Source: Gammaproteobacteria bacterium
GTDB taxonomy: Bacteria; Pseudomonadota; Gammaproteobacteria; Steroidobacterales; Steroidobacteraceae
DNA length: 64,000 nucleotides
Direction: 5' to 3'
Assembly: GCA_025358295.1 (NCBI GenBank)
Contig: JANYJY010000030.1
Span: 1 to 64,000 of the forward strand
Each line of letters begins with the position of its first letter. Positions within the stretch are counted from its first letter, which is position 1. The notes under the pieces were generated by a model. The model did not search any database, was not told where the DNA came from, and worked only from the letters and a program-made list of their open reading frames with translations. Shown piece after piece: positions 1,934 through 27,600 of the stretch. The position numbers were made by a program, and so were the translations under genes.

Positions 1934-4900
1934 CCGACGAACACACGGGCGTTACGGAACAAACGCATCCAGCCGCCGTCTTCCGCCCATTGCTTCGAAG
2001 CCCAGGAGTTTTGCACGGTGCGAAACACGCGCTCGGGGTGCGGCATCACCGAGGTGACGCGTCCGTCGGCGCTGCATAGTCCGGCGAGCCCCTGGCTCGA
2101 ACCGTTCGGATTAAAGGGATATTTCTCCGTAGGCCGCTCGCTATTGTCCACATACTGCAATGTGACCAGGCGATCCCGCATCACTCCGGCCGCGCTCGAT
2201 CCGGAGTCGAATTCCGCCCGACCCTCGCCATGCGCCACGGTGATCGGCAACACCGATCCGTGCATTCCCTGGAGCAACACGGACGGCGACTCGGGGATTC
2301 GCACCAGCGCCAAACGGGCCTCGTATTGCTCGGAGCGATTGCGCACGAAGCGCGGCCAACTTTGGGCTCCTGGAATCAATTCCTTGAGCGCCGACAGCAT
2401 CTGGCAACCGTTGCATACGCCCAGAGTGAACGTTGCATCGCGATTGAAGAATGCCGCAAATTCCTCGCGCGCCACGGCGTTGAAGAGAATGGACTTTGCC
2501 CAGCCTTCGCCGGCGCCCAATACGTCGCCGTACGAGAAGCCGCCGCAGGCCACCAGGCCATGAAATCGGCCCAAGCGAACCCGGCCGGCTAAGATGTCGG
2601 TCATGTGCACATCGTAGGCATCGAATCCCGCGCGCGTCAGCACCGCGGCCATTTCAGTCTGGCTGTTGACGCCCTGCTCGCGTAATACCGCAATTGCCGG
2701 GCGCGCGCCGCTCGCGATGAACGGAGCGGCCACGTCCGCGCTCGGGTCGTAGCTCAACCGCGCATGCAAGCCGGGATCGGCCGGATCCTCCAGCCGTGAA
2801 TACTCTTCGCGCGCGCAATCGGGATTGTCGCGCATCTCCTGAATGCGGAACGACGTTTCGCTCCAGCGGCGATGCAAGGCAAGGCGCGAACCGGAGAAAA
2901 TGGGGCCACCGTTCGCGCGCACTTCGATCTCGTCGCCTGCGCGCGGCTCGCCGATGTCGCGCGACAGCGCCGCCAATCCGTGGCGCGACACCACCTCCAG
3001 CGCCTCCGCGGCGCGCTCCGCCGAAACCTGCAGAACCACGCCCAACTCCTCGGCAAAACAGGCGCCAACGGAATCGGCGACCGTCCCCAAGTCGACGCCA
3101 AGTCCGCAATGAGAGGCGAAGGCCATCTCCAGCACGCTGAGCAGCACGCCGCCGTCCGAGCGATCGTGATAAGCAAGCAGCAGGCGGCGATCTTTCAGTT
3201 CACGCAATGCCGCAAACAGCGACACCAGAAGAATCTGCTCGTCCAAATCGGCCGGCGCGCCGCCGCTTTTGCTGTGCACCTGCGCCCAGCAGCTGCCACC
3301 CAAGCGGTTCTTTCCGGCGCCCAAATCGATGAGCAACAGGCGCGACGGGCGGGTCAAATCCAATTCAGGAGTCAGCGTCGAGCGCACATCGTGAACCGGC
3401 GCAAACGCGGAAACAATCAGGGACACTGGCGCGATCACCGCATGATCACCGGCCGCGTCCTTCCAAGCCGATCTCATTGAGAGCGAGTCTTTGCCGACCG
3501 GAATGGTAATGCCGAGCGATGCGCACAATTCCACGCCCACCGCGCGTACGGTGGCATACAAATCGGCATCCTCGCCCGGCTCGCCGCAAGCCGCCATCCA
3601 ATTTGCCGACAGACGAATATCGGTGAGATGGTGGACGTCCGCAGCGAGAATATTGGTGATCGCCTCGGCCACGGCCAGCCGTCCCGACGCGGGCGCGTTC
3701 AAAACCGCCACGGGGGTTCGCTCACCCATCGCCATCGCTTCGCCGCCATAGCCGTCGTAACTGTTCAATGTGACAGAGACATCGGCAACGGGTACCTGCC
3801 AGGGGCCCACCATCTGGTCGCGGCTGATCATTCCGCCGACGCTGCGATCGCCGATGGTAATCAGGAAGGACTTGTCAGCAATGGTCGGCAGACAGAGCAG
3901 GCGATTCAGCGACTCGGCGACCGTTGACCCGGCGGTCGAGAGTTCTTCGACGGTCTTGCCAATCGTGCGCACGTCGCGGGTCATGCGCGGCGCCTTGCCC
4001 AACAACACCTCGATGGGCATGTCGACCGGCGTGCCGGAGAGCAGCGGATCGGTCACCAGCAACCGTCCGTCGCCGGTGATCTCCCCGACCACGGCATAAG
4101 GGCAGCGCTCGCGCTCGCACAGCGCAGCAAATTGCGGCACGCTGCCGGGCACCAGCGCCAGCACATAGCGCTCCTGCGCCTCATTGCACCAGAGCTCCAT
4201 CGGCGACAACTCCGACTCCGCACTGGGAATTTTGCGCAAGTCGATGCGCCCGCCGCGACGGCTGTGCGCGATTGCCTCGGGCAGCGCGTTGGATAAGCCG
4301 CCGGCGCCCACGTCATGAATCAACAGGATCGGATTCGCCTCGCCCATGGCCCAACAGCGGTCGATCACTTCTTGGGCACGGCGCTGAATTTCGGCATTGC
4401 CGCGCTGCACGGAGGCAAAGTCCAGATCGGATGAACTTTGTCCGCTGCCGACCGAGGATGCGGCACCACCTCCCAAGCCAATCAACATCGCGGGACCGCC
4501 CAGTACGATCAGCGGGGCGCCGACCACGACGTCCTTCTTCTCCACGTCGGGCCTGCGCACATTGCCGAGACCGCCGGCGATCATGATGGGCTTATGATAG
4601 CCGCGAATGACGCGCCTGCCCGATTCCCGCACCTCTTGCTCAAAGGTGCGGAAATATCCGCAGGTATTCGGACGGCCGAATTCATTGTTAAAGGCGGCAG
4701 CGCCTAAGGGTGCGGCAATCATGATGTCGAGCGCCGAGGCGATCCGATCCGGCTTGCCGAAGTCGTGCTCCCAGGCATGCATCATGCCGGGGATTTTCAG
4801 ATTCGATACCGAGTAGCCGGTCAAGCCTGCCTTCGGTTTGGCGCCGATTCCCGTGGCGCCCTCATCGCGGATCTCACCGCCTGCGCCCGTGGCGGCGCCG

Positions 4901-6266: not shown

Positions 6267-7637
6267 ATGGCCTTGCGCTTACGCGTTGTCAGCGAGCATT
6301 CAAACCGCCTCGGCGAGCAATCCACCAAGGTGTTCGGTGTGCATGGCGGCACCATCGGGCGCTCGACTGACAATGAGTGGATTCTACCCGACCCGGAGCG
6401 TTACCTCTCGGGCAAACACGTGCGCGTGGATTTTCGGGCCGGAACCTACGTACTGGTAGACACCAGTTCCAATGGAACCTACGTCAATGGGGCCCAGGTG
6501 CCCCTGGGCAAATACCACGATTATGTGCTGAAAGACGGGGATTACATCCGTCTGGGCGAATATGAGCTGCTCGTCAGCATCGATAAGAGCAATGATTTTC
6601 CGCCCGAGGAAAGCGCCATCGTCGCCTACGACGGGCAATCGCCTTCCTCGGCGGTCAAGAAATCCACCGCCAACGATCTCGGCGCGGATCTCGACCTAAG
6701 CCAGTTGCTCGAGCCCAGCGACCTGTTGACTGGCGATTCCGGCGTTCGGCCGCGCGACGCCTATGGCCAGGCCCTGCCCAGCCGGGGTGGACCGCCATCG
6801 CGGCCGCCATTTGAGCCCGAAGGCGAAGCCGGCGGCACGCCCTGGCATATGATGACCCGACCGCTAACGGTCGCGGGCTTCAAGGCTGAGGCCCAAAAAG
6901 CCGAAGCACTCAAGGCTGAGCCGACACCACTGGGCCTGTCGCGCTCCCAAAACCCCGTGCTATTCGACGGCGATTTCGATACCGGCCTGACCGCGTTCTG
7001 TCGCGGCGCAGGCATAGACCCCGGGGCCATCACGTCCGAAACGCGCGGCGCGGCTCTGCAGCTTGCCGGACAACTTCTGCGCGAGGCCGTGCTCGGCCTG
7101 ATGGATCTGAACCAGGGGCGCAGCGAATTCCGCAATCGTTTCCGCATATCGGCGCCCGCCAACGATGGTCCGGAGTCGCCGTTGAATTTCTCGCGCGGCG
7201 TCGATGAGGCGCTGGTCCGATTGTTGACCACACAATCAACTCGCGCAGGATCGGTCGAGGCGATCCGTCAGAACTTCCGTGAGCTCAAGGCACAGAATAC
7301 GGCGACCTTGAGCGCCATGCGGGCGGCATTCGAGGAGTTTCTCGGGCGGGTCAACCCGACGGAATTGGAGGAGCGATTCGACAAGGCGACCAAACGCGGG
7401 GTCTTCAGCACGCAAAACAAGAACAAGTATTGGGACCTCTATTCAGAGATGTTCGCGGGACTTGCGCAGCGGCCCGCCGACGGGTTTCCGCATCTATTCA
7501 CCGAGACTTTCGCAAAGGCCTATGAAGCAAAATTGCGCGCCCTGGTCCCGCCGCAGCGCGGCGCCTTCGGCGCAGAAACAGCCGACGATGCTGCACAATC
7601 CGCGGACTCCAAAAATCAAGCGATCGGCGATCTGTAG
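6267..7637 (+). CDS. tagH: FHA-domain protein, type VI secretion TagH-like
   Basis: A 456-residue cytoplasmic protein. Residues about 10-100 form a forkhead-associated phosphopeptide-binding domain with the expected GRS (GTIGRSTDN), SGKH and TSSNGTYVNG motifs. A Pro/Ala-rich low-complexity linker follows (about 110-230). The C-terminal region (about 245-425) has the segments LLREAVLGLMDLNQGRSEFR and WDLYSEMFAGLAQRPADGFPHLF typical of the T6SS TagH C-terminal domain. In T6SS loci TagH works with PpkA kinase and PppA phosphatase in threonine-phosphorylation control. No other T6SS gene is in this window. I chose the ATG because GGAGGG lies 7 bases before it; a TTG five codons upstream is also in frame. 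Confidence 0.85.
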   Translation: MALRLRVVSEHSNRLGEQSTKVFGVHGGTIGRSTDNEWILPDPERYLSGKHVRVDFRAGTYVLVDTSSNGTYVNGAQVPLGKYHDYVLKDGDYIRLGEYELLVSIDKSNDFPPEESAIVAYDGQSPSSAVKKSTANDLGADLDLSQLLEPSDLLTGDSGVRPRDAYGQALPSRGGPPSRPPFEPEGEAGGTPWHMMTRPLTVAGFKAEAQKAEALKAEPTPLGLSRSQNPVLFDGDFDTGLTAFCRGAGIDPGAITSETRGAALQLAGQLLREAVLGLMDLNQGRSEFRNRFRISAPANDGPESPLNFSRGVDEALVRLLTTQSTRAGSVEAIRQNFRELKAQNTATLSAMRAAFEEFLGRVNPTELEERFDKATKRGVFSTQNKNKYWDLYSEMFAGLAQRPADGFPHLFTETFAKAYEAKLRALVPPQRGAFGAETADDAAQSADSKNQAIGDL

Positions 7638-7683
7638 CGCGTTGAGCGTAAGCTAGCGTGTCTTTCTCCTGGTAGCGTGGTAC

Positions 7684-8355
7684 GTGCGGCTCCTAATCGT
7701 AGAAGACGATGACATCGTTGCCGATGCAATCACGCGCGGGCTGACGGCCGCGAACTATTCGGTCCATCGTGTCGCCAGCGCCGAGGCCGCGCAAGCAGCC
7801 CTGATGAACGAAGAGTTTGCCATGGCGGTCATCGACGTAGGATTGCCGGGAGCGGATGGTTTGAGCCTGGTGCGGCGGCTGCGCAGTACGGGCAAGACCA
7901 TGCCGACACTGATTCTCACCGCCCGCTGCACGCTGACCGACAAGGTCAAGGCGCTGGATCTCGGTGCCGACGATTTCTTGAGCAAGCCGTTTGAGGCCGC
8001 CGAATTGGCTGCGCGCTGCCGCGCCTTGATGCGTCGCGCAAGCGGGGCATCGAACGGCATCATCAAACTCAACCGCATGAGCATCGACCTCGTAGGCAGG
8101 CGTCTGTGCATTGACGACGGCGAGATCGAATTGACGGCCCGAGAGTGGCTGCTGCTGGAATGCTTGGTGCTGCGCATTGGATTGATCGTCTCCAAGGAGC
8201 GCCTCCAGCAGGCAGTGGCAAACCCGGATCACGACATCACGCCCAATGCCGTCGAAGTCCATATCTCGCGGCTGCGCGCCAAGATCGGTGCCGCCGCAAC
8301 AGTCCGCACGCTACGCGGCCTGGGTTATCGCCTCGAAGAAGTAAAATCCTCGTGA
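7684..8355 (+). CDS. OmpR-family response regulator
   Basis: A 223-residue two-component regulator: receiver domain (about 1-115) and winged-helix DNA-binding domain (about 128-220). The acidic pocket (EDDD near residue 7), phospho-acceptor Asp51 in AVIDVGLPG, Thr79 and Lys101 are all present. The start is GTG; the N-terminus MRLLIVEDDD fits the family. Its TGA stop overlaps the GTG start of the downstream kinase, which makes them a translationally coupled pair. The sequence resembles the QseB/TctD group; the signal and targets are unknown. The pair is directly upstream of the pilin operon, with only 22 bases between the kinase and fimT. Confidence 0.92.
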   Translation: MRLLIVEDDDIVADAITRGLTAANYSVHRVASAEAAQAALMNEEFAMAVIDVGLPGADGLSLVRRLRSTGKTMPTLILTARCTLTDKVKALDLGADDFLSKPFEAAELAARCRALMRRASGASNGIIKLNRMSIDLVGRRLCIDDGEIELTAREWLLLECLVLRIGLIVSKERLQQAVANPDHDITPNAVEVHISRLRAKIGAAATVRTLRGLGYRLEEVKSS

Positions 8356-9695
8356 CCTCGTCCATCAGCCGTCAGTTGATATTTTGGCTGGCGGTGCCGC
8401 TCATGTTGCTGGCGCTGTGCGGCGCGTTGGTCCACTACTTCAACCACGTCGCACCCGAAGTGATCGACAGCGACCGGCGCTTGCGAGAAGCCTCGAATGC
8501 GCTGATGGCGCATGTACTGATCAAGGGCGGTCAAGTCACGCTCGACGCGAATCAGGCCGGACGAGCGGCCCTGCCGGCGCCCGAATCCATAAGCTATGCG
8601 CTGCGCGGCACGCAGGGTCATCTGCTCATCGGCGACTCACAATTCCCGGTGGTGCCGATGAGCGCCGCGAATCCGCAAATGATTGCGATGGCCCAGATCG
8701 GCAGCCGCACCGTGCGCACACTCACCACCCGATTCGACACCCGCAATGGAGTCATCATCATTTCGGTCGCGGATCTGAAGCCGGCTACGGGGCCGGCGGC
8801 GCGGTATGGCTTCATGAGCACGCTGCTCTGGGATTTCGTGCAATTGGACGTCACCCTGGTATTGGTCTGGGTCGGAATCCAGCTCGGTCTGCGGCCGGTC
8901 AAGAGGCTGCGCAACGAGATCGCGAATCGCTCGCCGCACGATCTGCGACCCATCGACGATTCGACCGTTCCTCGCGAAATCGCACCGGTGGTTGTCACGC
9001 TCAACCGGCTGTTCGCCATGCTGCGCACCTCCGTCCAGTCGCAACAGCAGTTCATCGCCAACACCGCGCACCAATTGCGCACGCCGATCACCGGAATGCA
9101 GGCTCAATTGGACTTGCTGGCGGCCGAACCCGCGGCGCAGCCCATTCGACACCGATTGATGACCCTGCAGGAATCGACCCGGCAGCTGGCGCATTCCGCG
9201 AATCAATTGCTGTCGCTGGCGCGGGCCGATCCGGCCGCGAATATCGCCGCCAAGACCCAGCCCGTGGATTTAAATGCCATCGTCGGCGAGGTCGCGGCTA
9301 AATTCTTCGATCGTGCCCTGCAATCCAGCATCGACCTCGGAGTTGATGCCGTTCCGGTGATCATCTCCGCCGACCCTTCGCTGCTCGATGATCTATTGAG
9401 TAACCTGGTCGACAACGCGTTGAAATATACGCCGGCCGGAGGCAGCGTCACGGTCAGCGCCGGATTGTCCAATGGCCGCGCATTCCTCGCCGTCGAGGAC
9501 ACCGGCCCCGGCATTCCGCCGGCCGAACGGCAGCGCGTGCGTCAGCGATTCTTTCGACTGCCGAATTCTCCCGGGCACGGCAGCGGCCTCGGCTTGGCGA
9601 TCGTGGATGAGATCGCGCGGTTGTACGGCGCCTCGGCCATCATCGGTGACGGCGCAAACGGCAGAGGCACCAAAGTCGTGTTGCAGTTCCCTTAA
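8352..9695 (+). CDS. Sensor histidine kinase, TctE/QseC type
   Basis: A 447-residue inner-membrane kinase. TM1 spans about residues 9-29 and TM2 about 158-180, enclosing a periplasmic 2CSK_N-like sensor domain. A short linker follows, then a HisKA domain with phospho-accepting His240 in NTAHQLRTP, then an HATPase domain with N box (LVDNALKY), G1 (DTGPGIP) and G2 (GHGSGLGLAI). The GTG start overlaps the stop of the response regulator in a GTGA sequence. A longer in-frame extension upstream lies wholly inside the regulator gene and is discarded. TctE-type kinases often sense carboxylates, but nothing here identifies the ligand. Confidence 0.93.
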   Translation: MTSSISRQLIFWLAVPLMLLALCGALVHYFNHVAPEVIDSDRRLREASNALMAHVLIKGGQVTLDANQAGRAALPAPESISYALRGTQGHLLIGDSQFPVVPMSAANPQMIAMAQIGSRTVRTLTTRFDTRNGVIIISVADLKPATGPAARYGFMSTLLWDFVQLDVTLVLVWVGIQLGLRPVKRLRNEIANRSPHDLRPIDDSTVPREIAPVVVTLNRLFAMLRTSVQSQQQFIANTAHQLRTPITGMQAQLDLLAAEPAAQPIRHRLMTLQESTRQLAHSANQLLSLARADPAANIAAKTQPVDLNAIVGEVAAKFFDRALQSSIDLGVDAVPVIISADPSLLDDLLSNLVDNALKYTPAGGSVTVSAGLSNGRAFLAVEDTGPGIPPAERQRVRQRFFRLPNSPGHGSGLGLAIVDEIARLYGASAIIGDGANGRGTKVVLQFP

Positions 9696-17347: not shown

Positions 17348-19510
17348 TTAATTCCGCAACGCCGCATTAAACATAATGTACTCAGTCCGGCCGGGCGCCG
17401 GCTCAAAAAACCTGGAATTGGATTCGTTGACGATCACGGACCCTATATAGGCCCGATCCGCGAGGTTTTCCACCCGGGCGAACTCGCTAAACCGCCAATG
17501 CATCGTTTCCTGTGTGAAGCCGGCCCGCAAATTCGCGACCCAAAACCCCGCTGCCGCGTCCGAATTGCGGTCGTCCACATAGATCCTCGCTCGGCCCAAG
17601 GTCTCCAAGGTCGTGGAGAAGCCCCATGGAGAATAGCTCCAGGTCGCTCCGGCATACAAACTGTTCATCGCTACGGCCGGCAGGTAGTCGCCCGCATTGA
17701 CCGTCTTGTAGTTAGCAGGCAACGGACCGCCCGGATTCGCCAGGGGGTTGCATGGGGCCGCTACGCAGGTTGCGTAGGCCTGTCCTACCACCGCCCGAAT
17801 ATAGGTGTAGGCCAATCGTCCGCTGAAGCCGCCGCGCCAATTCGCATCGAGCTCGAATTCGAGCCCGCGGCGATTGGTGGAGTTGATGTTCTGATAGACC
17901 GACCTGCCGCCGGAGTTTTGCAGCACGGCCAACTCATCCACGGTGCTGATATAGAACGCGGCAAGATTGGCGCGAACACGCTTTGTTCCCGCTTTGATTC
18001 CGACTTCGTAATTGTTGCTGCGGGCCGGCTTTAGGCCAAGGTTCAGCCCCGGCAGACTGCCGTTGACCGATCGATAGGCAAGATCATTGAGCGTCGGGGT
18101 CTCAAAACCCTTGCCGTACGAACCATACAGATTCACCGCCGAACTCGCACGGAAAGTGACGCCTCCCACCGGATTCACCGACGAGTAGCGCACGCTGCTG
18201 TCTGCTCCGTCGAGCACCGCAATGTGTCCGTGAGAGCTCAACTGGACCAGGTTGTTGCGCACGCCGCCGATCACCCGCCAGCGAGCATCGGGATCCCATT
18301 GCGCCTGCAGGTACTGATCGAAGTCATACACATGATTCGCTTCATCGCGCCGCAAATCCCCCGCCACCCCCAACGCCGTACCGACGAAATTAAAATATCC
18401 CCTGCGTGCCTCCGCCAAATCGTCGTAGTTCAGACCCGCCACGACTTGAAGATGCGTGCCGGCAAGCTCGCGACTATCGGTCAAATGGGTATCGATCCCC
18501 CAAAACGCACGATCCAAATCGATCACGCCGCCCGGACTCAAGGGCGCGCCCTGAGTGGCCCTCGGTATGCCCTGAAATTGGGTGGTGGCACGATGGCCGG
18601 TGTAGAGCATGGCCGACAAATCATCCGTCGCGCTCAATTCGTCTTCGAATATCGCACCCAACTGTTCTTGGTCGAGAGACTTGCGGGTGTTGTACAGGAT
18701 CGCTCCCGTGCCGGCCTGACGCGCGTCCGCCCCCATCTGCGCGCGCGTCAGCCCGAGGGGATCCTGAACGCTCGGCGTCTCGACCGCATTGGCAACCATC
18801 GTCAATTTCGATTTGTCGCCGGTCGGAATGAGCAGCTTCGCATTGAAGTTGTCGCGCTCCGCATCGCTGTGAAACCGATAGCCGTCGGTCTGAAAGTGCG
18901 CGGCATCCACCACATAGTTGACCACGCCGTTGTCGCCCTCGCTCTTCAAGGCGTAGCGTTGCGTGTTGAAAGTACCGTACTCCGCGGTGCCGCCGACCTC
19001 ACTCCCGGGCTTCCCGCTTTCGGTGAAGATGGCGATGACGCCACCGGATGAATTGCCGTACAGCGCGGAGAAAGGTCCGCGCAGCACTTCGATGTGATCG
19101 GCCGACCCCAAATCGAATTGCGAAAATTGACCCTGACCGTCGGGCATGGTGCCCGGAATACCGTCGGAATAGAGCCTGATGCCCCGGACTCCAAAGCTCG
19201 CTCGCGCGCCGAAGCCGCGCACCGAGATCTGTAGGTCCTGGGCATAGTTCTGGCGGCTCTGAACGGACAAGCCGGGTACGGCAATCAGCGATTCAGACAA
19301 ATTGACTTGTAGCTGGCCATCGGCGATGGCGCGTCGGCCAACTCGGTCGACGGACACGGGGAGTTCGAAGCTGGACTGGGCGACTCGGGTGGCGGTGACC
19401 ACGATGGCGTCCAGTTGCGCAGTATCTTCTGCGACGGCGCTGCCGCCGCAAATTCCCCAGCCAGTCAGCAGGGCGGCAACCCACACCCCAGTTCGTCCTC
19501 GCATGCTCAT
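17348..19510 (-). CDS. TonB-dependent outer membrane receptor
   Basis: A 720-residue outer-membrane active transporter. Signal peptide at about residues 1-27 (cleavage near AVAED), then a TonB-box-like stretch (LDAIVVTATRV), a plug domain (about 45-155, with VRGFGARASFGVRGIRLYSDGIPGTMPDGQG and EVLRGPFSALYGNSSGG) and a 22-strand-type barrel ending in a terminal aromatic/hydrophobic strand, YIMFNAALRN. The plug resembles FecA-like siderophore or citrate receptors, but the ligand is not evident. I chose the ATG at 19510, which has AGGA four bases upstream; the frame stays open to 19669, but that extension lacks a signal sequence. Divergent from the secreted-subunit cluster at 19668. Confidence 0.92.
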   Translation of the reverse strand: MSMRGRTGVWVAALLTGWGICGGSAVAEDTAQLDAIVVTATRVAQSSFELPVSVDRVGRRAIADGQLQVNLSESLIAVPGLSVQSRQNYAQDLQISVRGFGARASFGVRGIRLYSDGIPGTMPDGQGQFSQFDLGSADHIEVLRGPFSALYGNSSGGVIAIFTESGKPGSEVGGTAEYGTFNTQRYALKSEGDNGVVNYVVDAAHFQTDGYRFHSDAERDNFNAKLLIPTGDKSKLTMVANAVETPSVQDPLGLTRAQMGADARQAGTGAILYNTRKSLDQEQLGAIFEDELSATDDLSAMLYTGHRATTQFQGIPRATQGAPLSPGGVIDLDRAFWGIDTHLTDSRELAGTHLQVVAGLNYDDLAEARRGYFNFVGTALGVAGDLRRDEANHVYDFDQYLQAQWDPDARWRVIGGVRNNLVQLSSHGHIAVLDGADSSVRYSSVNPVGGVTFRASSAVNLYGSYGKGFETPTLNDLAYRSVNGSLPGLNLGLKPARSNNYEVGIKAGTKRVRANLAAFYISTVDELAVLQNSGGRSVYQNINSTNRRGLEFELDANWRGGFSGRLAYTYIRAVVGQAYATCVAAPCNPLANPGGPLPANYKTVNAGDYLPAVAMNSLYAGATWSYSPWGFSTTLETLGRARIYVDDRNSDAAAGFWVANLRAGFTQETMHWRFSEFARVENLADRAYIGSVIVNESNSRFFEPAPGRTEYIMFNAALRN

Positions 19511-19586
19511 GAAGTCCTCTGAAGGTCTACAATTGGGGTCAAAGCACTCACCAGGATATGTCAAGAAGGGTATCCGCAGGCAGAAA

Positions 19587-19599
19587 TCGGGGTCCCCGA
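19587..19599. promoter_or_regulatory. 13-base palindrome in a divergent intergenic region
   Basis: TCGGGGTCCCCGA is a perfect inverted repeat (6-base arms, 1-base centre) lying between the divergent TonB receptor and the secreted-subunit gene. It is well placed for an operator, but no regulator is identified and GC-rich palindromes arise by chance. Confidence 0.25.
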
Positions 19600-19667
19600 G
19601 ATAATCATTAAAGTACCGCCGCCGCTTGTCGTTACCTTCGATAGAAGGGGAAATCGGGAACGCGAAC

Positions 19668-20069
19668 ATGAAATGGCATCATGCAGTCGGCGGCTTGATG
19701 AGTACTGCGGCAATATTGATGCCGTTGTCGGCTGTGCCGGAATCGCAGATTCAAACGGCGGCGCCGGACAAGGCCGTGAGCGCCTCGGCGCATGTGAATT
19801 TTAAAATAGTCATCCCTCCGGTTCTGTACTTGAGCGCCACAGGCGAGCAGACCGTCGCCGTCATGAGCAACAGCCGCAATATCACGCTGAACGCCACCAG
19901 CGCGGCCGATACCGCCGGCGCGAACGGCCGCCCAAGAAGCAATTTGATCCTGAACGCAGCCGGAAGAAGGGTCATTGCGCGGGAGACGCGTTGCGCCGTT
20001 GCCGCCGCGCCTGTCGGCACACCGACCGCAACCGTTCACCCGGTCATTTGTACTGCCTCGATGCCTTGA
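19668..20069 (+). pseudogene. Shortened copy of the downstream secreted subunit, probably decayed
   Basis: A 133-residue open frame with a signal-peptide-like start and then SAHVNFKIVIPPVLYLSATGEQ, closely matching AHLDFSIVIPKVLYLRVGSG in the gene at 20359. SNSRNITLNATS matches SNSGNVTLNATAS, and the final PVICTASMP matches RVTYTATMP. Two blocks present in the 212-residue relative are missing: the segment after the first strand, and the middle with the DGAGDSIPF motif. The part between them (about residues 85-110) is Arg-rich and unlike the family. It could be a decayed duplicate or a short functional variant; the missing core argues for the former. Weak ribosome binding site. Confidence 0.55.
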
Positions 20070-20358: not shown

Positions 20359-20997
20359 ATGAATACATCGATGGCCTTGAAGAGTTTACTGGGCGTAGGG
20401 GCATTGATGCTTCCTCTCCTGGCATCCGCCGAATCTAATGTTCAGACGGGAGCCGCGACCGCCTCACCCGGCGCGACTGCCCACCTGGATTTTTCCATTG
20501 TGATTCCGAAGGTTCTGTATTTGCGCGTCGGTAGCGGTTCTGCCTATACGACCGGAACTCTGGCTTCGGTGAACACCACCGACCTGATCACCTTCTCTCC
20601 GGCTGCGGGCACCGTGGGCAACGGCACCGCTGTCGCCGGCACGGGCGGTGATCTGACCGGCGGCGTCGAAACGGCGGCCATCGTGAGCAACAGCGGCAAC
20701 GTCACGTTGAACGCCACGGCCAGCGGCGCGCTCAGCGACGGCGCCGGCGACAGCATTCCGTTCACGCAGATCACCACGGCTGCAACGGCATTGACGTCGG
20801 CCACCCAGCTGCCGCCTCCGACACTGACCAATGCCACGAGCTCCAACGTGGTTCTCACCGCGCCGGCGACGAAACTGATCGTCCAGGACGCCAAGTGGAC
20901 CTATAGCTTCGCCAACTCCACCAACGTGCCGGCCGGCACCTACGGCGGCATCAACGCGAACAATAGCCGCGTGACCTATACGGCGACGATGCCGTAA
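20359..20997 (+). CDS. Secreted beta-rich putative fibre subunit
   Basis: A 212-residue exported protein: signal peptide about 1-23 (cleavage near ASAES), then a Gly/Ala/Thr/Ser-rich domain made almost wholly of alternating beta-type segments, without cysteines. Recognisable blocks are IVIPKVLYLRVGSG, VSNSGNVTLNA, GAGDSIPFTQI and the last strand RVTYTATMP. The gene at 21019 shares the LRVGSG/LQVGVG, AGDSIPF and C-terminal PAGT...VxYT blocks, and the short frame at 19668 shares the first and last. The AGGA of AGCAGGAAATG gives the start. Context with a PapD-like chaperone and an outer-membrane protein suggests a chaperone-dependent surface subunit; that is inference. No known family is recognised with confidence. 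Confidence 0.75.
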   Translation: MNTSMALKSLLGVGALMLPLLASAESNVQTGAATASPGATAHLDFSIVIPKVLYLRVGSGSAYTTGTLASVNTTDLITFSPAAGTVGNGTAVAGTGGDLTGGVETAAIVSNSGNVTLNATASGALSDGAGDSIPFTQITTAATALTSATQLPPPTLTNATSSNVVLTAPATKLIVQDAKWTYSFANSTNVPAGTYGGINANNSRVTYTATMP

Positions 20998-21018
20998 GGG
21001 CGCACGCACAGCAACGCA

Positions 21019-21699
21019 ATGCACGCCAACCCGCCATCGTCACGGGCGCCTGTTGTGCGGACCGACCGACAAGGGCTGCGCCGAGAATTAATCGGCGCGG
21101 CCCTGTTCGTTGTGCTGTCCGGCACGGCATCAGCGTACACGGCGACACTCACGGCTGCTTCACCGCAAGCCGTGTACTTGCAGGTCGGCGTCGGCAGCTT
21201 CACGAACACGTATCTGAACGGCGGCCAGCCCGGCAATAACACCACGGTAAACAAGGTTTCAGCGACCGTGCCCGCGGGCGTGCTCGGCAATGGCACCGCG
21301 CAGACCATGACCACCGACAGCACTGCCACCCAGAGCTACTGGGACAACTATACGTTTTGCAGCGTGCCGGGTCAGGTGTACATCGGCGGGTTCTATCGCA
21401 CCACCGGCGCGACCACCACCGCGGCACTGGTGACGGCCACGGTGCCGACGGCGCTCACCGACGCGGCGGGCGACAGCATTCCATTTTCAAAAATTCGTTG
21501 GGCTTCCAGCGGCAACGGCGACACGGGCGCCCAGCCATTTCCGGCGGGCACCTTCGTCAACGGCGGCGTGCAGAACGTCGGATCCATGAGCAGCAACACG
21601 TGGAATGAAAGCTGCTGGGCATTCTCTTACTTGAACAATTCGATTCCGCCGGCCGGCACGTTCACCGGCACTGTCCGCTATACGCTGAGTTCGCCGTGA
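21019..21699 (+). CDS. Second secreted beta-rich putative subunit
   Basis: A 226-residue exported protein related to the preceding one. It has a long charged n-region, then a hydrophobic segment (LIGAALFVVLSGTASA), then YTATLTAASPQAVYLQVGVGSF, a central part with aromatic residues (QSYWDNYTFCSVPGQVYIGGFY), the shared AGDSIPFSKI block and a terminal strand GTVRYTLSSP. Two cysteines (about residues 113 and 193) could form a disulfide, unlike the cysteine-free relative. The alternating hydrophobic last strand is what a donor-strand-type subunit would show, but this is not proof. It lies 21 bases after the previous gene, and its stop overlaps the start of the next. Confidence 0.72.
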   Translation: MHANPPSSRAPVVRTDRQGLRRELIGAALFVVLSGTASAYTATLTAASPQAVYLQVGVGSFTNTYLNGGQPGNNTTVNKVSATVPAGVLGNGTAQTMTTDSTATQSYWDNYTFCSVPGQVYIGGFYRTTGATTTAALVTATVPTALTDAAGDSIPFSKIRWASSGNGDTGAQPFPAGTFVNGGVQNVGSMSSNTWNESCWAFSYLNNSIPPAGTFTGTVRYTLSSP

Positions 21700-22181
21700 T
21701 CGCGGCCGCCCCTCGAACGGCGCTCATTGCTTTTTTTTTGGCCTGCGCATTGAGCATAATCTGGCCCTCTTCGAGCCAGGCAAAGACAACGCAGATCGAT
21801 GATTCGGGCACACAGGCGCTCGAACCGTCAGTGAGCATGCGCTGGAAAACCACCACGCCGACACGCACAGGCGCCGGCAACCTGATGGCCGGGACGTCGA
21901 CGTTGCGGGTACGGCTCAATGTCATGCCCTGGCTGCACCGTTCAGGAAAGATCTATTTGAATTTACCGGCGCAGCAACCCGGTCCCATCACGATTTCATG
22001 GCTGACTCAAGGAAGACTGCAGCCGGGACTGCTGCGCTCCGGCAATCGCGTGCTGGTCTATGCCGGCCCCATTGCAACGCCGTTCATGGAGGACACGCTG
22101 ACCCTGCAGTTCAGCGTGGACGGGACTTTGGTCCGGCGAACCTTCCCTGTGTCGTTCCACTTTGAAATGGATGAGGATTGA
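21696..22181 (+). CDS. Small exported protein of the chaperone locus, function unknown
   Basis: A 161-residue protein with a signal peptide (hydrophobic core ALIAFFLACALSII, cleavage near SSQAK) and a mature part of about 130 residues with a beta pattern: TLRVRLNVMPWLHRSGKIYLNLP, ITISWLTQGRLQPGLL and TLTLQFSVDGTLVRRTFPVSFHFE. No cysteines in the mature part. The GTG start overlaps the previous stop (GTGA). Not recognised as a member of a named family. Position between the subunits and the chaperone, and the Ig-like strand pattern, suggest an adaptor, tip or minor subunit. Confidence 0.7.
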   Translation: MIAAAPRTALIAFFLACALSIIWPSSSQAKTTQIDDSGTQALEPSVSMRWKTTTPTRTGAGNLMAGTSTLRVRLNVMPWLHRSGKIYLNLPAQQPGPITISWLTQGRLQPGLLRSGNRVLVYAGPIATPFMEDTLTLQFSVDGTLVRRTFPVSFHFEMDED

Positions 22182-22183
22182 TC

Positions 22184-22975
22184 ATGCGGCGATTGGCTTT
22201 GGTATTGTTCTCCCTACTCGGTATCGCGCTCGCGTCGGCGGCGCATTCGCAAGGATTCGCAGCGTTGGTATCGCCGCCGCGCTTCGAGCTGTCGACGCAG
22301 CCCGGCAAGACTCTGCGCAGCGTGATCGAGATCAGCAATCGATCGACAGCTCCCGGGCGCTATCTCATGCATACCGCCGACTGGACTTTCTCGGCGGATT
22401 TCACGGTGAACTTTCTGGACGACCTTCAGCCCGGCAGTTGCCGGCCGTGGGTTGCCATCGAGCGGCCCGAGGTCGTGGTTCCCGGCGGCGGAACCTTGCG
22501 CTACCGCTTCGAAGTGACGGTACCTGCGGACGCTCCGCCGGGGGAGTGCCGTTTCGCCGTGATGATTGAAGGTGCCGAGCCGTCGATCGCCCGCAGCCAA
22601 GGCCTCGACCTGCCGGTTACCGGACGCATCGGCGTCATTGTCTACCTGACCGTGGGCGACGGTGCACCGGACCTGGAAGTATTCGGCCCGAAGGTGGTGA
22701 TACTCAACGGTCAACAGATTCCGGTTCTCAGCGTTCACAACTCCGGCTCCGCACACGGCCGCATGAGCGGTTTCTTAACCGGCAAGGACGCCAAGGGAGT
22801 GGAGTACGACTTCACGCCATCGGACTTTCCGATATTGCCTCACGAACAGCGCGACGTCTTTTTAACGCCGTCGACTGCCACGGACGATCACCCCAAGCTC
22901 GCCTTCCCCGTGACGGTGAAGGGCACTCTCGAGTGGGGCAATCACAAGACTGAGCTTGATCAGATTTTTGAATGA
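22184..22975 (+). CDS. PapD-like periplasmic chaperone
   Basis: A 263-residue exported protein: signal peptide about 1-22 (cleavage near AHSQG), then two Ig-like domains. The first begins ALVSPPRFELSTQPGKTLRSVIEISN, with the Arg in SPPRFEL at the place of the chaperone's subunit-anchoring Arg. It continues with WTFSADFTVNFLDD, PWVAIERPEVVVPGGGTLRYRFEVTVPADAPPGECRFAVMIE and GRIGVIVYLTVGD. The second domain is SVHNSGSAHGRMSGFL to the end. Two cysteines (SCRPW, GECRF) are atypical for classical FimC/PapD chaperones. The family is broad, and divergent members are often called P-pilus-assembly-chaperone-like. GAGGA lies just before the ATG, which I prefer to an in-frame TTG two codons earlier. The next gene overlaps its stop. 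Confidence 0.8.
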   Translation: MRRLALVLFSLLGIALASAAHSQGFAALVSPPRFELSTQPGKTLRSVIEISNRSTAPGRYLMHTADWTFSADFTVNFLDDLQPGSCRPWVAIERPEVVVPGGGTLRYRFEVTVPADAPPGECRFAVMIEGAEPSIARSQGLDLPVTGRIGVIVYLTVGDGAPDLEVFGPKVVILNGQQIPVLSVHNSGSAHGRMSGFLTGKDAKGVEYDFTPSDFPILPHEQRDVFLTPSTATDDHPKLAFPVTVKGTLEWGNHKTELDQIFE

Positions 22976-24990
22976 CGCGCCTCTCCCACCTCGCACCCCG
23001 GCTCGCGATCGGCCTGTGCGGGCTGGGAGGACTCACGTGCAGCAATGCCGCGGGCGCGCAAAACGCGCCGGCGGCATTGCCGGCCCTGTCTGGGTATCAG
23101 GATCACTACATCGGCGGCGGCAACCTGACGCCGGACATTTCAGCGGGTGACACTTCGACCCGCGATACCGAGGGCCTCGCACGCTCGCTGCAGGTCGATG
23201 GCGTAGTGAGCGCACTGAGCTCGCATGGCGGCGGCTCCAGCAGCAACGTGACGGAAAATGGCATCGTCGCCAAGGCTCAATGGGAGACCGCGCGGTATGG
23301 CGCCTGGTCGCTCGATGCGTCCGCACGCACGGGCGGCTCGGATATGGGCCCGTATGAACAGGGCCAGGGCGGCGTCATCGCATTAAGGCAGCGAGGCATG
23401 CCCTTCGATGGAGATTGGCAGGCCGACAATGCGCTCGGCGATGTGAATTCCCCCGACATCAACATGGCGCGATTTCAACCGCGCTTTTATCTGCCCACGG
23501 CACCGATTCAAGGAGGGTCAACGGAATGGCGCGGGCCTTCGGGCCTGCAGCTGGTAGCCGGCGGCGGAGTGCCCGGCCTCTACGATGGCATCGTCGTCCC
23601 CAATTTCCGCACCCTGGACGGATCCACCGCGACCGCCGGCGCGCAATGGTCGCCGGTCCCCCACTGGACCGTGGGAGCACAGTTCATCGAAGCGCACAAT
23701 GTGAATCTCGCCGCGGGTCCCGTCATCGATGGCAGCAGCCTTACCTCCTCCACTACCGGCCTTCTCAGCGCCGCCTGGGCCGATGACAATAAACATGTGC
23801 AAGCGAATCTCTTGGACGGCGGCATCAGCGGCAAGGGCAATGCCGTGGGCACCTGGATCGACGGATCCATCACGCAAGGTCGGTTGCTGCAAAATGCCGG
23901 TGTGTTTCGCATCGATCCGAACTTAACCTGGGGCAATCAGCTGATTTCAAACGACGCCCAGGGTGGCTATTACCGGGTCAGTTACCAGAGCCGGCAGTGG
24001 CTTGGGGACCTTGGCATCGACGAAGTCCGTTCGGTTTCGGGGCTCGGCACAAGCACGACGTTTCTCACCGGCGACACGCGCTACCAGATGTCGCGTGACT
24101 GGGGCATCGGCAGCGTCGCCAACGCCAGTCATTCCGACGGCGGCACCAGCTGGTCGCTGGAAGGCTTCTTGGACCATATCAACGGCGGGGGCACGGGACG
24201 CGCGCAGGCTGATTTCACGCAGACCCCGGCTGGCAAGGATGCCATGTTCACCTTGAATGAATCCTGGTCGACGCCAGTCAACTTCCGGCTCAGCACGTCC
24301 GCAGCCGTGGAACGCATCAGCGGTGCCCTCATCAACGGCCTGCAACAAGACAGCACGGTGCTGAGCGTCGCAGCCTACGGGGGAGGTCAATTTGGCGCCG
24401 GCTTCGGCATAGAGGGCAATGTGCGCTGGGCTGAGGCCGTGCAAGGAAAGGCTGCGCCCGGGATATTCGCGAACGTCTCTTTGACCTGGCAGATGTCCCA
24501 TGCCTGGCAGATCTTGGCGACCTACTACGATAGCCGCATCGGTTCCTGGACCCCGCTCATCGTGGAGTCGCCGTTAACACCGCCCGTTGCAACCCCCGTG
24601 GCCGCGGTCCAGGAGCGTGGCGTGTTTTTGACAGTACGTTATCGACGCGCGCGAGGGTCTCATTTTGCGCCTCTGGGTGGTGCACCGGGCGCCGGGTCCG
24701 GTGAAATCACCGGTGTCGTGTTTCTCGATGCCAACAACAACGGCCGCTCGGATGCGGGCGAGGCTGGCGCCGCCAATGTTACCGTGGTGTTAGACCGACG
24801 ATTCTCGGTCCAAACCGACGTCAACGGACGCTTTTCATTCCCTGTGGTGGCAACCGGACATCACGTGATCACCGTCGTGGCCGATAATCTTCCCCTGCCG
24901 TGGACCCTGTTGAACGAGGGCCGCACGGCAGTCGAAGTCACGACTCGCGATCGCACCGATATCAGCATCGCCGCGCAACGCCCGCGCTGA
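22972..24990 (+). CDS. Outer-membrane beta-barrel-like protein with C-terminal SdrD/Cna-B-like domain
   Basis: A 672-residue exported protein. Signal peptide about 1-29 (cleavage near AGAQN). Residues about 60-555 alternate polar and hydrophobic residues with many Gly, Trp and Tyr, as in an outer-membrane barrel. A Gly/Pro-rich region in the first third includes RGMPFDGDWQADNALGD and GVPGLYDGIVVPNFRTLDG. Residues 576-672 form a domain starting EITGVVFLDANNNGRSDAGE with VNGRFSFPVVATGHHVITV, like SdrD B-type or prealbumin-like domains; the DANNNGRSDAGE loop could bind calcium. It is shorter than classical FimD ushers, and I see no FimD-type conserved cysteines or N-terminal domain. Coupled by overlap to the chaperone gene. 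An export or anchoring role for the subunits is inference from context. Confidence 0.7.
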   Translation: MTRLSHLAPRLAIGLCGLGGLTCSNAAGAQNAPAALPALSGYQDHYIGGGNLTPDISAGDTSTRDTEGLARSLQVDGVVSALSSHGGGSSSNVTENGIVAKAQWETARYGAWSLDASARTGGSDMGPYEQGQGGVIALRQRGMPFDGDWQADNALGDVNSPDINMARFQPRFYLPTAPIQGGSTEWRGPSGLQLVAGGGVPGLYDGIVVPNFRTLDGSTATAGAQWSPVPHWTVGAQFIEAHNVNLAAGPVIDGSSLTSSTTGLLSAAWADDNKHVQANLLDGGISGKGNAVGTWIDGSITQGRLLQNAGVFRIDPNLTWGNQLISNDAQGGYYRVSYQSRQWLGDLGIDEVRSVSGLGTSTTFLTGDTRYQMSRDWGIGSVANASHSDGGTSWSLEGFLDHINGGGTGRAQADFTQTPAGKDAMFTLNESWSTPVNFRLSTSAAVERISGALINGLQQDSTVLSVAAYGGGQFGAGFGIEGNVRWAEAVQGKAAPGIFANVSLTWQMSHAWQILATYYDSRIGSWTPLIVESPLTPPVATPVAAVQERGVFLTVRYRRARGSHFAPLGGAPGAGSGEITGVVFLDANNNGRSDAGEAGAANVTVVLDRRFSVQTDVNGRFSFPVVATGHHVITVVADNLPLPWTLLNEGRTAVEVTTRDRTDISIAAQRPR

Positions 24991-25029: not shown

Positions 25030-25380
25030 TTGTCACGATTGCGCCATCGATTCGGCCTACGCGTTGCGGTAATCACCGCAGTCGCGTTGCTGCTTGCCCA
25101 ACTCGGGGCGATGACGCACGCCTATTCGCACGACGGAAGTCTTGCGCCGGCCGCGCTGCATCAACCGATCTCCGGCGATCGGGCCGCTCCGTCCAGTCAC
25201 GATTTTTGCCGCGACTGCCTCAATTTCGCGCCCCTGTTGGCGGCGGCGGGCACACCCACCGCGCTACCCCACATCAAGCCGCAGGATTGCAGCCTTACGC
25301 GGCACGCCGAATCTCGAGCGCCGGTCGCTCGCCGCCCCCATTTCGCCTTCCGTTCTCGCGCTCCTCCCCTCACGCACTAA
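25030..25380 (+). CDS. Small exported His/Cys protein, DUF2946-like
   Basis: A 116-residue protein with an N-terminal hydrophobic segment (VAVITAVALLLAQLGAMTHA), then histidines (HAYSHDG) and HDFCRDCLNFAPLLAAAG. A conserved hydrophobic start, His and CxxC pattern is shared with DUF2946 proteins, which are often encoded beside TonB receptors and metal-handling genes. The start is TTG with AAGG about 7 bases upstream; no better start is present. The tail is Arg/Pro-rich. It lies 66 bases before a TonB receptor, probably in one transcript. A metal-related role is inference. Confidence 0.6.
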   Translation: MSRLRHRFGLRVAVITAVALLLAQLGAMTHAYSHDGSLAPAALHQPISGDRAAPSSHDFCRDCLNFAPLLAAAGTPTALPHIKPQDCSLTRHAESRAPVARRPHFAFRSRAPPLTH

Positions 25381-25446: not shown

Positions 25447-27600
25447 ATGTTGTCATTCAAAACTTGTGCAGTGTCGCTGACGCTGTCGGCTACCTTGATT
25501 GTTCTTTTACCGCGTGTTTTGCACGCCGATGAAGGCACCCAATCGCTCGACGCCATCGTCGTCATGGCGCAGCACCTGAACGAAGCCCGTAACGGCATTC
25601 AGACCAAGACCGGCGCGTCGACCTACGTCATCGACGAAGCCGCAATCGCCGCCGCGCCCGGCGGGGACAATAGCCTGCTCAATCAAGTGGTCATGCAGGC
25701 GCCGGATGTTGCCCAGGATTCCTTCGGCCAATATCACGTTCGCGGTGAACACAACGGCCTGCAGTATCGGTTGAACGGCATCATTCTGCCCGAAGGCATC
25801 AGCGTATTCGGCCAGTCGCTGGATCCCCGGCTCATCTCCTCGCTGACGCTGATCACCGGTGCGTTGCCGGCCGAATACGGACTGCGCACGGCGGGCATCA
25901 TCGACCTGAAGACCAAGAGCGGGGTCATAGATCCGGGCGGCTCGGTCTCACTGTATGGCGGCAGCCACGGCACCATCCAGCCCAGCTTCAACTACGGTGC
26001 TACATCCGGCGCGCTCAACTACTTCGTGTCGGGAGACTTTCTGCGCAGCGACCTCGGGATCGAGTCCCCGGACGGCTCATCCCATCCGCTGCACGATCAC
26101 ACCACCCAATATCATGGCTTTGCGTATATCGAGTACATAGTCAATGAAGAGAATCGTCTGAGCGCGGTGCTCAGCACATCGACCGGCCAGTTTCAGATTC
26201 CGAATAGATCCGGCCTGCAGCCGGGGATCTTGAATGCGGACGGCACACCGCTCATCGTCGCCGGACAAAGTAACTTTCGGAGCGATGCTCTCGCTGAAAA
26301 TCAGCGGGAAATCAATCATTTTGCCGTCCTAAGCTGGCAGCACTCGCAGGGCGCACTGGACGTGCAGACCTCGATGACCGCGCGCTATTCGAGTTTGACA
26401 TTCACGCCCGACCCGCTCGGCGACATTCTATTCAACGGTATCGCACAAGACGCCTACAAGCAGAATGTCGCGTACGCGCTACAATCGGACGCCGCGTATA
26501 AGCTCGACGATTCGCACACGTTGCGTGCCGGACTTTTCATGCAGAGCGGCCGGTCGAAGAGTCTCACGAGTTCGGCGGTGATCGCGCTCGCTACCGACGG
26601 CAATCAAATCGACGATGTACCGTTGACGATCTCGGACGACGGAGCTAAGACCGAATGGATTGAAAGCTTATACCTTCAGGACGAATGGAAAATCGTTCCC
26701 ACGGTCACGATCAATTACGGCTTGAGATTCGATCGCTTCACGGCCTACGCGAGCGCCAATCAAGTAAGCCCTCGTTTCAACATCGTCTGGCAGGCACTCG
26801 ACGGCACGGTCGTGCACGCCGGCTATTCGCGATACCTGTCGCCGCCGCCCTTCGAATTGGTCGGCAACGAGACCGTCGCAAAATTCGCGAATACCACGGC
26901 AGCAACCGCAGTGACTCAGGCAGACACTCCGCAGGCCGAGCAAGCGAACTACTACGATATCGGTGTGCAGCAAATGCTATCCCGCCGGGTCACCGTTGGT
27001 GTGGATACCTACTACAAACAATCGCGTCATCTGATCGACGAAGGACAGTTCGGCGCGCCGATCATTCTCACGCCTTTCAATTATGCCCAGGGCAGGCAAT
27101 ACGGCGCCGAATTGACCGGCAACTACACCGACCAGGCCCTCTCCGCTTACTTGAACCTTGCTTACCAGAGCGCGCGGGGCAAGAACATCGACTCTGCGCA
27201 ATTCAATTTCTCCCAGTACGATTTGAACTACATTGCCGAGCACTACATACATCTCGACCACGAACAACAGATCACCGCCTCGGGCGGCATCTCTTACTTA
27301 TGGCTGGGCACCCGGTACAGCGCGAATTTCCTGCTCGGTTCCGGGCTGCGAGCTAACCAGGATCTATCCAACGGCGACTTCATCCCGAATGGCGCACACC
27401 TGCCCTACTACACCCAGGTCAACCTCGGCGTGAGTCACGTTTTCGATCTCGGTGGCGCCGGCACATTGACGGCGCGATTCGACGTCCTCAATGCCCTGGA
27501 CAAGATTTATGAGATCCGGGACGGCACGGGCGTCGGCGTCGGCGCGCCGCAGTTCGGACCGCGGCGCGGATTCTTCGTGGGCGTGACGAAGTCGCTTTAA
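25447..27600 (+). CDS. TonB-dependent receptor
   Basis: A 717-residue outer-membrane receptor. Signal peptide about 1-27 (cleavage near LHADE), a TonB-box-like LDAIVVMAQ, a plug domain (about 45-155) with NSLLNQVVMQAPDVAQDSFGQYHVRGEH and a barrel to the C-terminus. The plug lacks the usual LRGP...YG form: the corresponding stretch is TLITGALPAEYGLRTAGIIDLKTKSG, which is the form seen in a distinct subgroup of receptors. The final strand ends RRGFFVGVTKSL. A small His/Cys protein lies upstream, and this pairing is often metal-related. The substrate is not evident. Confidence 0.9.
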   Translation: MLSFKTCAVSLTLSATLIVLLPRVLHADEGTQSLDAIVVMAQHLNEARNGIQTKTGASTYVIDEAAIAAAPGGDNSLLNQVVMQAPDVAQDSFGQYHVRGEHNGLQYRLNGIILPEGISVFGQSLDPRLISSLTLITGALPAEYGLRTAGIIDLKTKSGVIDPGGSVSLYGGSHGTIQPSFNYGATSGALNYFVSGDFLRSDLGIESPDGSSHPLHDHTTQYHGFAYIEYIVNEENRLSAVLSTSTGQFQIPNRSGLQPGILNADGTPLIVAGQSNFRSDALAENQREINHFAVLSWQHSQGALDVQTSMTARYSSLTFTPDPLGDILFNGIAQDAYKQNVAYALQSDAAYKLDDSHTLRAGLFMQSGRSKSLTSSAVIALATDGNQIDDVPLTISDDGAKTEWIESLYLQDEWKIVPTVTINYGLRFDRFTAYASANQVSPRFNIVWQALDGTVVHAGYSRYLSPPPFELVGNETVAKFANTTAATAVTQADTPQAEQANYYDIGVQQMLSRRVTVGVDTYYKQSRHLIDEGQFGAPIILTPFNYAQGRQYGAELTGNYTDQALSAYLNLAYQSARGKNIDSAQFNFSQYDLNYIAEHYIHLDHEQQITASGGISYLWLGTRYSANFLLGSGLRANQDLSNGDFIPNGAHLPYYTQVNLGVSHVFDLGGAGTLTARFDVLNALDKIYEIRDGTGVGVGAPQFGPRRGFFVGVTKSL

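Follow-up and report, generated by a model that had tools for sequence, protein, structure and literature searches.

The window analyzed here is the whole 64,000-nt stretch of contig JANYJY010000030.1, and it contains a cluster of genes, all on the plus strand, that encode exported subunits, a small exported protein, a chaperone, and an outer-membrane (OM) protein. A sequence-only reading had described five overlapping or closely spaced genes at 20359-24990, and open reading frames (ORFs) are indeed present there, with 4-base overlaps at three junctions (sub2/small, small/chap, and chap/OM) and a gap of 21 bases between sub1 and sub2. The first gene, sub1 (20359..20997), encodes an exported subunit of 212 aa with an N-terminal extension, in which residues 43-50 (20485..20508) match the sequence pattern of a donor-strand-like segment, alternating hydrophobic residues with a final Pro. 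Its start was set at the ATG at 20359; the mechanical ORF begins with TTG at 20293. It is followed by sub2 (21019..21699), a second exported subunit type of 226 aa without such an extension, and both genes were called from their ORFs and homologues. The small gene (21696..22181, GTG start) was called from its ORF and the recurrence of its family, and it encodes an exported protein of 161 aa. The chap gene (22178..22975) encodes a soluble two-domain WxLIP/PapD-like chaperone of 265 aa, recognized by profile-profile comparison, that begins with TTG at 22178 and has an alternative in-frame ATG at 22184. The last gene, OM (22972..24990), encodes a usher-like outer-membrane protein of 672 aa, assigned from an AlphaFold2 model, a fold search, and profile comparison; the protein comprises a modeled beta barrel (residues 71-561; 23182..24654) and a C-terminal SdrD_B/usher-CTD1-like domain (residues 565-672; 24664..24987). 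Because of the 4-base overlaps at their junctions, sub2, small, chap, and OM look translationally coupled.

A sixth gene, sub0 (19668..20069, within ORF 19626-20069), is part of the cluster. It sits 289 bases upstream of sub1 and encodes a short subunit-like exported protein of 133 aa, with a donor-like N-terminal segment, a short body containing two Cys, and a C-terminal end TASMP. Counterparts precede sub1 in four relatives (L002, L003, L006, and L007), and the ATG at 19668 was chosen as the start since the L003 and L007 counterparts begin there. Signal peptides of the cluster proteins were judged by eye. None of the six proteins exceeded a curated Pfam or NCBIfam cut-off, except for SdrD_B at the OM C terminus (30.7 bits against a Pfam cut-off of 29.7; E 3.7e-07), in agreement with the SdrD-type domain noticed there earlier. 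Below the cut-off, Pfam gave CarboxypepD_reg at the OM end and, in 10 of 18 chaperone members, NPCBM_assoc. The small protein, previously read as Ig-like, matched no Pfam or NCBIfam family, and that description is not retained. A PHROGs search gave 0 matches for five cluster proteins, and membership in phage families was rejected on this ground. One promoter-like site was seen, compared to 1.4 expected.

Conservation and distribution of the gene set

Five hidden Markov models (HMMs) were run on a set of 31 loci, namely, the window, L002-L017, L024, and L054-L066. All of these except L024, a short fetch, were fetched through the chaperone, whose presence there is thus by construction, and ORFs cut by a contig end were kept as they were. 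In 30 loci, an OM-family gene lay no more than a few kb away from the chaperone, and the sub2-type, small, and sub1-type genes were found in 28, 27, and 25 loci, respectively. Of the six loci without sub1, L004 and L005 begin and L059 stops at a contig end, sub2 is preceded by 528 bases in L013, L024 is the short fetch, and the sole match in L066 is a distant chaperone (60 bits). The small protein was lacking in L056 and L065. A 32nd locus, L169, has all five families. The window's gene order was found in 16 of the 32 loci, the window counted; seven (L055, L058-L062, and L064) carry OM on the other strand, four have other orders (L056, L057, L063, and L065), and five further loci are cut, short, or orphan. 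Extra sub1-type ORFs are present in L010 (two, one of them cut by the contig start), L015 (two), and L056 (three). Because the families recur together, the five genes form a conserved module, beyond chance, and since the order changes while the content stays, a functional unit is favored. The grouping into a subunit/chaperone/OM set that had been proposed from the window alone thus holds at other loci, and its five-gene order is also met elsewhere.

The L066 chaperone relative is an orphan. It lies beside a gene for a 269-aa exported-looking protein ending in YTIAIP (7614-8435 and 8526-9335, both on the minus strand), and a barrel gene was not detected by the five HMMs within the fetched 15 kb. 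L010-L017 are more distant relatives with chaperone identities of 43-48%, and five of these eight are Variovorax records.

The distribution of the module is patchy. With the OM protein as the query, the barrel was present in 8 of 23 congeneric genomes, that of the window counted, and in 75 other relatives the match was confined to the SdrD_B end. The chaperone profile matched in at least 15 of 369 class genomes, and the OM profile gave some match in at least 44 of 398 phylum genomes, the barrel itself being matched in at least three (G000, G203, and G808); these counts are lower bounds, at most seven (chaperone) or two (OM) candidates per genome having been scored. A scan of genome contigs with the chaperone as the query gave 98 pattern stretches, 16 of which encode a relative.

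PMC4654587 divides chaperone-usher (CU) pili into three pathway types, classical, alternative, and archaic. In the window's own genome, no match to usher, PapD_N, or SCPU was found. Among 19 genus genomes (G000-G018), the new module was found in seven and archaic PapD plus SCPU in six, with zero overlap (hypergeometric 0.034, calculated by hand and uncorrected for relatedness). However, in the class sample a usher is present as well in 3 of the 15 genomes that carry the new chaperone, and mutual exclusion with archaic CU systems was therefore rejected as a general rule.

A chaperone family related to WxLIP and PapD

The chap family consists of two-domain proteins in which a pair of Cys residues is conserved (each Cys in 30 of 31). 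Pfam scans of the window protein and members gave no PF00345 (PapD_N) match, and the relation to PapD appears only when profiles are compared with profiles. Against seven archaic PapD proteins of the genus and its order, hhalign gave 96.3% (E 1.5e-9, score 70.8), and against 23 diverse PapD proteins, 16 of them added from beside diverse ushers, it gave 97.9% (score 95.4), with both domains aligned in each case. The match to 12 actinobacterial WxLIP/DUF916-like proteins was stronger, at 99.3% over 211 columns (E 1.8e-20, score 148.6). When set sizes were matched, 7 random WxLIP proteins scored 118-138 and 12 random PapD proteins scored 64-86, in 6 of 6 draws. Column shuffles reached at most 1.0% with 25 per pair and at most 1.5% in a set of 30; all hhalign E values refer to single comparisons. 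PapD and WxLIP also match each other, at 87.8% with the seven PapD proteins and 93.4 to 95.0% with the wider set. By these profile comparisons the three families are related, and chap is nearer to WxLIP because WxLIP outscores PapD, also at matched set sizes. The earlier naming of a PapD-like chaperone therefore stands for the PapD superfamily; the closer relative is WxLIP/DUF916.

Other searches bear on the same relation. When chap was compared by tblastn with 72,556 plasmid records, only two matched, both from Actinobacteria. Next to one match is a gene whose product weakly matches the WxL domain (PF13731, E 0.0023, below the cut-off), and the other match is itself hit by PF06030 (WxLIP_PGBD) at E 1e-5, just under the cut-off. 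On chap, PF06030 gave matches in 2 of 18 members, with a best E of 0.027. Further searches and regions, not all of the latter being used, supplied comparison sets of 12 WxL-like and 12 WxLIP-like proteins; of the WxL-like rows, 8 were picked by tblastn and 4 by their position beside a WxLIP gene. The 31 chap proteins have no C-terminal membrane helix, the highest 19-residue hydropathy within their final 70 residues being at most 1.17, compared to at least 1.97 in the 12 WxLIP proteins. In an unrooted chaperone tree with long branches, PapD (100/100) and WxLIP (100/98) are separate, and the chap rows fall on one side of a branch in 16% of the bootstrap trees, a low value because the distant L066 row joined WxLIP. 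The tree decides nothing on descent.

These data bear on an alternative in which the locus is an ordinary, highly diverged CU system, a new usher clade with a reduced platform, and the WxLIP likeness is that of a common Ig-like chaperone fold. The PapD match, the usher match of the OM protein (96.1%, see below), and the match between PapD and WxLIP themselves would fit, as would the Trp69 and Arg35 columns, which are common to chap (30 of 31 and 27 of 31), archaic PapD (7 of 7 each), and most diverse PapD proteins (20 of 23 and 17 of 23) and are found in 0 of 12 WxLIP proteins. However, another Trp is common to chap (31 of 31) and WxLIP (12 of 12), the WxLIP score exceeds both PapD scores, matched sets included, and the chap tblastn search reached DUF916-type proteins, one of them beside a WxL-like protein. 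We consider this alternative quite improbable.

On the plasmids L170, L185-L192, and L195 (from Arthrobacter, Streptomyces, Curtobacterium, Cellulosimicrobium, and Clavibacter), a DUF916-like gene adjoins a WxL-like or candidate gene, which is annotated as a hypothetical protein in all but one.

The outer-membrane protein and the subunits

The AlphaFold2 model of the OM protein, made with 17 homologues, had a mean predicted local distance difference test score (pLDDT) of 72.0 and a predicted template modeling score (pTM) of 0.63, with 26 barrel strands. The N-terminal 68 residues, which include the signal peptide, were of low confidence, and the C-terminal beta domain had a pLDDT of 40-68. No inserted plug was present in the model, where gaps between strands are at most 24 residues (medium confidence). 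A Foldseek search against the Protein Data Bank (PDB) gave 324 matches at an E of ≤0.001. The top nine were all FimD or PapC ushers (E 8.8e-13 to 1.0e-8), followed by an Mtr-complex barrel (2.4e-8), more ushers, and then others. The Pfam usher model (PF00577) gave no match to OM at an E of ≤1 and none among 17 members at an E of ≤0.5. Of the two outcomes that the sequence-only reading had named as refuting it, neither was obtained, be it a confident match of the 672-residue protein to a known usher or secretin family or subunit predictions that depart from a beta sandwich and fail to pair with the chaperone.

A profile of 31 OM rows was also compared with 35 diverse ushers (28 of 30 ORFs, those within 600 to 960 aa, plus 7 archaic ushers; the two outside this range were dropped). 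This gave 96.1% (E 3.3e-9) over OM residues 459-672, whereas two TonB receptors of the window gave 0.1-0.4% against the OM profile. When the protein was split, the C-terminal domain matched the CTD1 stretch of the 35 ushers at 90.0%. The OM N-terminal profile gave 0.1-0.2%, and the usher N-terminal domain (NTD) was not found; CTD2 was not found either, OM ending where usher CTD1 ends, at column 701 of 801. From the aligned start, the OM rows are 651-721 aa long, two L004 pieces apart, compared to 733-942 aa for the ushers (one contig-cut fragment, 621 aa). Judged from the model and the profiles, OM is usher-like in overall architecture, yet it is not filed as a usher; it is called only usher-like because the split tests place the usher match mainly in the C-terminal domain. 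The sequence-only reading had seen no classical usher features, which holds for the Pfam model, NTD, plug, and CTD2 but not for the overall architecture. In L004, a metagenome-assembled genome, the OM gene is broken into two frames of 112 and 382 aa (2087-3516); it is unbroken in close relatives.

A barrel whose family is not established by sequence, with TonB receptor genes as neighbors, could also belong to a secretion or receptor complex unrelated to fibers, such as one in which a porin-like barrel is combined with Ig-like accessories in the periplasm and with secreted beta-rich effectors. The five families recur together, however, and the flanking receptors are found only in the loci of close relatives among 12 searched, which makes this explanation very improbable.

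As had been proposed, the two subunits are related (BLASTP 29% over 163 aa, E 1.7e-6; profile-profile 99.7%), and from these similarities sub1 and sub2 are regarded as paralogous families. Some differences between them were apparent. First, an alternating hydrophobic, donor-like segment precedes the core in 29 of 29 sub1-type rows, two of which are sub0 counterparts, and in 1 of 27 sub2-type rows, where it lies inside the signal peptide; shuffled sequences would give 0.6 and 0.4, respectively, and the pattern was defined after the sequences had been inspected. Second, the median N-terminal length before the core is 28 residues in the sub1 type (19 of 29 rows) and 12 in the sub2 type (17 of 27 rows), the core pattern having missed 10 rows in each family. 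A C-terminal Pro is found in both, in 27 of 29 and 23 of 27 rows, respectively. PF14352 (DUF4402) and PF05229 (SCPU) did not match the window subunits or 13 sub1 members. With hhalign, the two subunit families gave 4.8% and 1.1% to SCPU, and the subunits gave 1.2% to DUF4402, in a poor DUF4402 alignment containing wrong-frame ORFs. Canonical usher, SCPU, and DUF4402 membership was rejected, there being no Pfam or NCBIfam matches.

The subunits were also compared with WxL proteins. No WxL domain (PF13731) was found in window sub1, sub2, or the 13 sub1 members scanned. With hhalign, sub2 gave 34.5% to WxL-like proteins (25 shuffles at ≤0.3%) and sub1 gave 12.1%; with this weak sub2 match only, and 1.2% for the combined subunit profile, the subunits are not claimed as WxL domains. 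In Gram-positive WxL/WxLIP (DUF916-DUF3324) clusters, according to PMC10599100, the WxL beta sandwich is predicted to have a gap that is closed by a strand of WxLIP. By analogy, this is the logic of donor-strand complementation, with the same count as chap, sub1, and sub2. The words "usher," "pilus," "donor," and "Gram-negative" are absent from the main text of PMC10599100. The module resembles these clusters in its two-domain WxLIP-like protein, in the set of one WxLIP-like and two related beta-rich secreted proteins, and in a strand-like motif at the extreme end of the partner. It differs in that the host is diderm and an OM barrel is added, the WxLIP-like protein has no membrane anchor, and the partners are not recognizable as WxL domains.

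The locus might thus be a WxL-type surface complex in a diderm envelope, in which the WxLIP-like protein would permanently hold one or two WxL-like proteins and the barrel would anchor or export them, with no polymer formed. The nearness of the chaperone to WxLIP and the weak sub2 match speak for it. However, the WxL model matched neither the window subunits nor the 13 sub1 members scanned, the combined subunit profile is at the 1.2% given above, and the chaperone is without an anchor. Polymerization would be more in keeping with the usher-like barrel, with the N-terminal extension that sub1 carries, and with the additional sub1 copies in L010, L015, and L056. We regard such a complex as unlikely.

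Proposed assembly pathway, related systems, and neighboring genes

The reading that we favor, with moderate confidence, is that the locus encodes a CU-like surface assembly pathway with a chaperone of WxLIP (DUF916) lineage and a reduced platform. To judge from their signal peptides, all six proteins would be exported by Sec. In the periplasm, the two-domain chaperone may bind each beta-rich subunit and complete its sandwich by donor-strand complementation, as its homology to PapD and WxLIP suggests. The complexes would then dock at the OM barrel, which, by its architecture and its CTD1-aligned C-terminal domain, could serve as translocation pore and assembly platform. Because the donor-like segment differs between the subunits, sub1 could, on a CU reading, both donate and accept a strand and sub2 only accept one. 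Subunits of the sub1 type would thus be chained by strand exchange through the N-terminal segment, and sub2, which has none and would only receive a strand, might cap the distal tip. Accessory roles are guessed for the small protein and sub0, perhaps those of an adaptor and a terminator. The product would be a fiber or surface protein.

Several results weigh against this pathway. First, the donor-like pattern was found in 0 of 15 archaic SCPU subunits, and therefore it marks its own family and is no general mark of a donor strand. Second, the AlphaFold2 model of sub1 (32 sequences) had a pLDDT of 68.9 and no PDB match below an E of 0.1. Third, the top nine fold matches of OM have template modeling scores of 0.33-0.42 and root mean square deviations of 17.8-23.6 Å, and porins and TonB receptors appear among the matches from an E of about 1e-6. 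Fourth, the usher profile score is mostly due to the OM C-terminal domain. This domain is better matched by SdrD_B domains in other large proteins (92-98% for 5 of 6 ORFs, the sixth being an antisense ORF) and was rejected as a usher-specific mark. Tested without it, the usher homology of the barrel was weak, with 30.7% over 34 columns against the ushers and 3.0% against the 7 archaic ushers. Finally, the anchors Arg89 and Tyr196, which PMC4654587 gives for nonclassical CU chaperones, are absent from chap at the assigned columns, where it has Ala (29 of 31) and Pro (30 of 31); PapD has R and Y in 7 of 7 each in the archaic set and in 18 of 23 and 15 of 23 in the diverse set. In chap, an Arg two residues before the Arg89 column is conserved (27 of 31). 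The same paper describes an invariant Pro of strand D1 in CU chaperones. At this column, which is P in 7 of 7 archaic PapD proteins, chap has R in 29 of 31 and, at the next column, P in 10 of 31; the alignment is unsure there because the column has P in only 13 of 23 diverse PapD proteins.

Archaic (sigma) CU systems (Csu/CupE; PF00345, PF00577, and SCPU PF05229) are similar to the module in their periplasmic two-Ig chaperone, a remote homologue, their large OM barrel with a CTD1-like C-terminal domain, and their several exported beta-rich subunits, with comparable operon content. Unlike them, the module has no HMMER match to PapD_N, usher, or SCPU, its subunits are not detectably SCPU, and, as noted, the usher NTD, plug, CTD2, and the two chaperone anchors were not found.

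A second comparison is offered by two Deinococcus plasmid records, L199 and L200, which the WxLIP search weakly matched (E 2e-3 and 1e-2, respectively). Each has a run of four genes, for an exported subunit-like protein, a WxLIP-like protein, a small exported protein, and a long barrel-like protein, annotated as hypothetical or as carboxypeptidase-like regulatory domain. The WxLIP-like proteins match the chap family at 98.8% and 98.5% (no shuffle control), compared to 8.0% and 11.8% for the 7 archaic PapD proteins, and have no membrane helix by eye. In the long protein, a region that is barrel-like by eye is followed by SdrD_B/CarboxypepD domains; compared with the OM C-terminal domain, these gave 95.9% when taken as a pair and 91.4% and 59.4% when taken singly. 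However, the barrel proteins are longer, at 1013 and 1090 aa, and carry additional Ig-like domains at the N terminus, their barrel-like regions give 0.1-0.2% to the OM barrel profile, and the subunits and small protein are not detectably homologous to those of the window (hhalign <2%). These records suggest that diderm systems with WxLIP-type chaperones form a wider class. A bolder proposal, which we hold only tentatively and think somewhat doubtful, is a separate class of diderm surface fibers across Proteobacteria and Deinococcota, with WxLIP-type chaperones and SdrD_B-tailed barrels, as a surviving intermediate of a common donor-strand ancestor. If this were true, one ancestor would have given rise both to the chaperones that donate strands to pili in Gram-negative bacteria and to the proteins that hold WxL in Gram-positive walls.

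Usher domains gate and hand over subunits. The module appears to do the job of a CU system with a chaperone nearer to Gram-positive WxLIP and a platform without recognizable usher gating domains. If a fiber is assembled, it would show what a minimal usher requires and would provide an evolutionary link between two donor-strand systems. Judged by title, none of the papers listed in full-text searches dealt with the module, subscription journals and preprints lying outside the search. By title, papers joining WxL and usher were surveys of monoderm surface proteins or of surface colonization, and none of those joining DUF916, chaperone, and Gram-negative was on this module. The module is real, conserved, and unnamed within the literature searched, and its novelty is provisional.

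TonB-dependent receptor genes flank the cluster at 17348-19669 (minus strand) and 25447-27600 (plus strand). The former is also found in L003 and L007 and the latter in L002, L003, and L004; among the 12 loci searched, flanking genes (TonB receptors, an amidohydrolase, and others) were found only at L002-L005 and L007. Directly before the second receptor, 25030-25380 (plus strand) encodes a 116-aa exported-looking protein with His/Cys motifs, which gave no Pfam match at an E of 0.001 and which we take to resemble the DUF2946 type. Elsewhere, at 135171-135458 (minus strand) of contig C9 in G000, a genome with an OM barrel, a large frame (1229 aa) has an SdrD_B-like stretch, and frames of 1000-2200 aa with such a stretch are present in several relatives.

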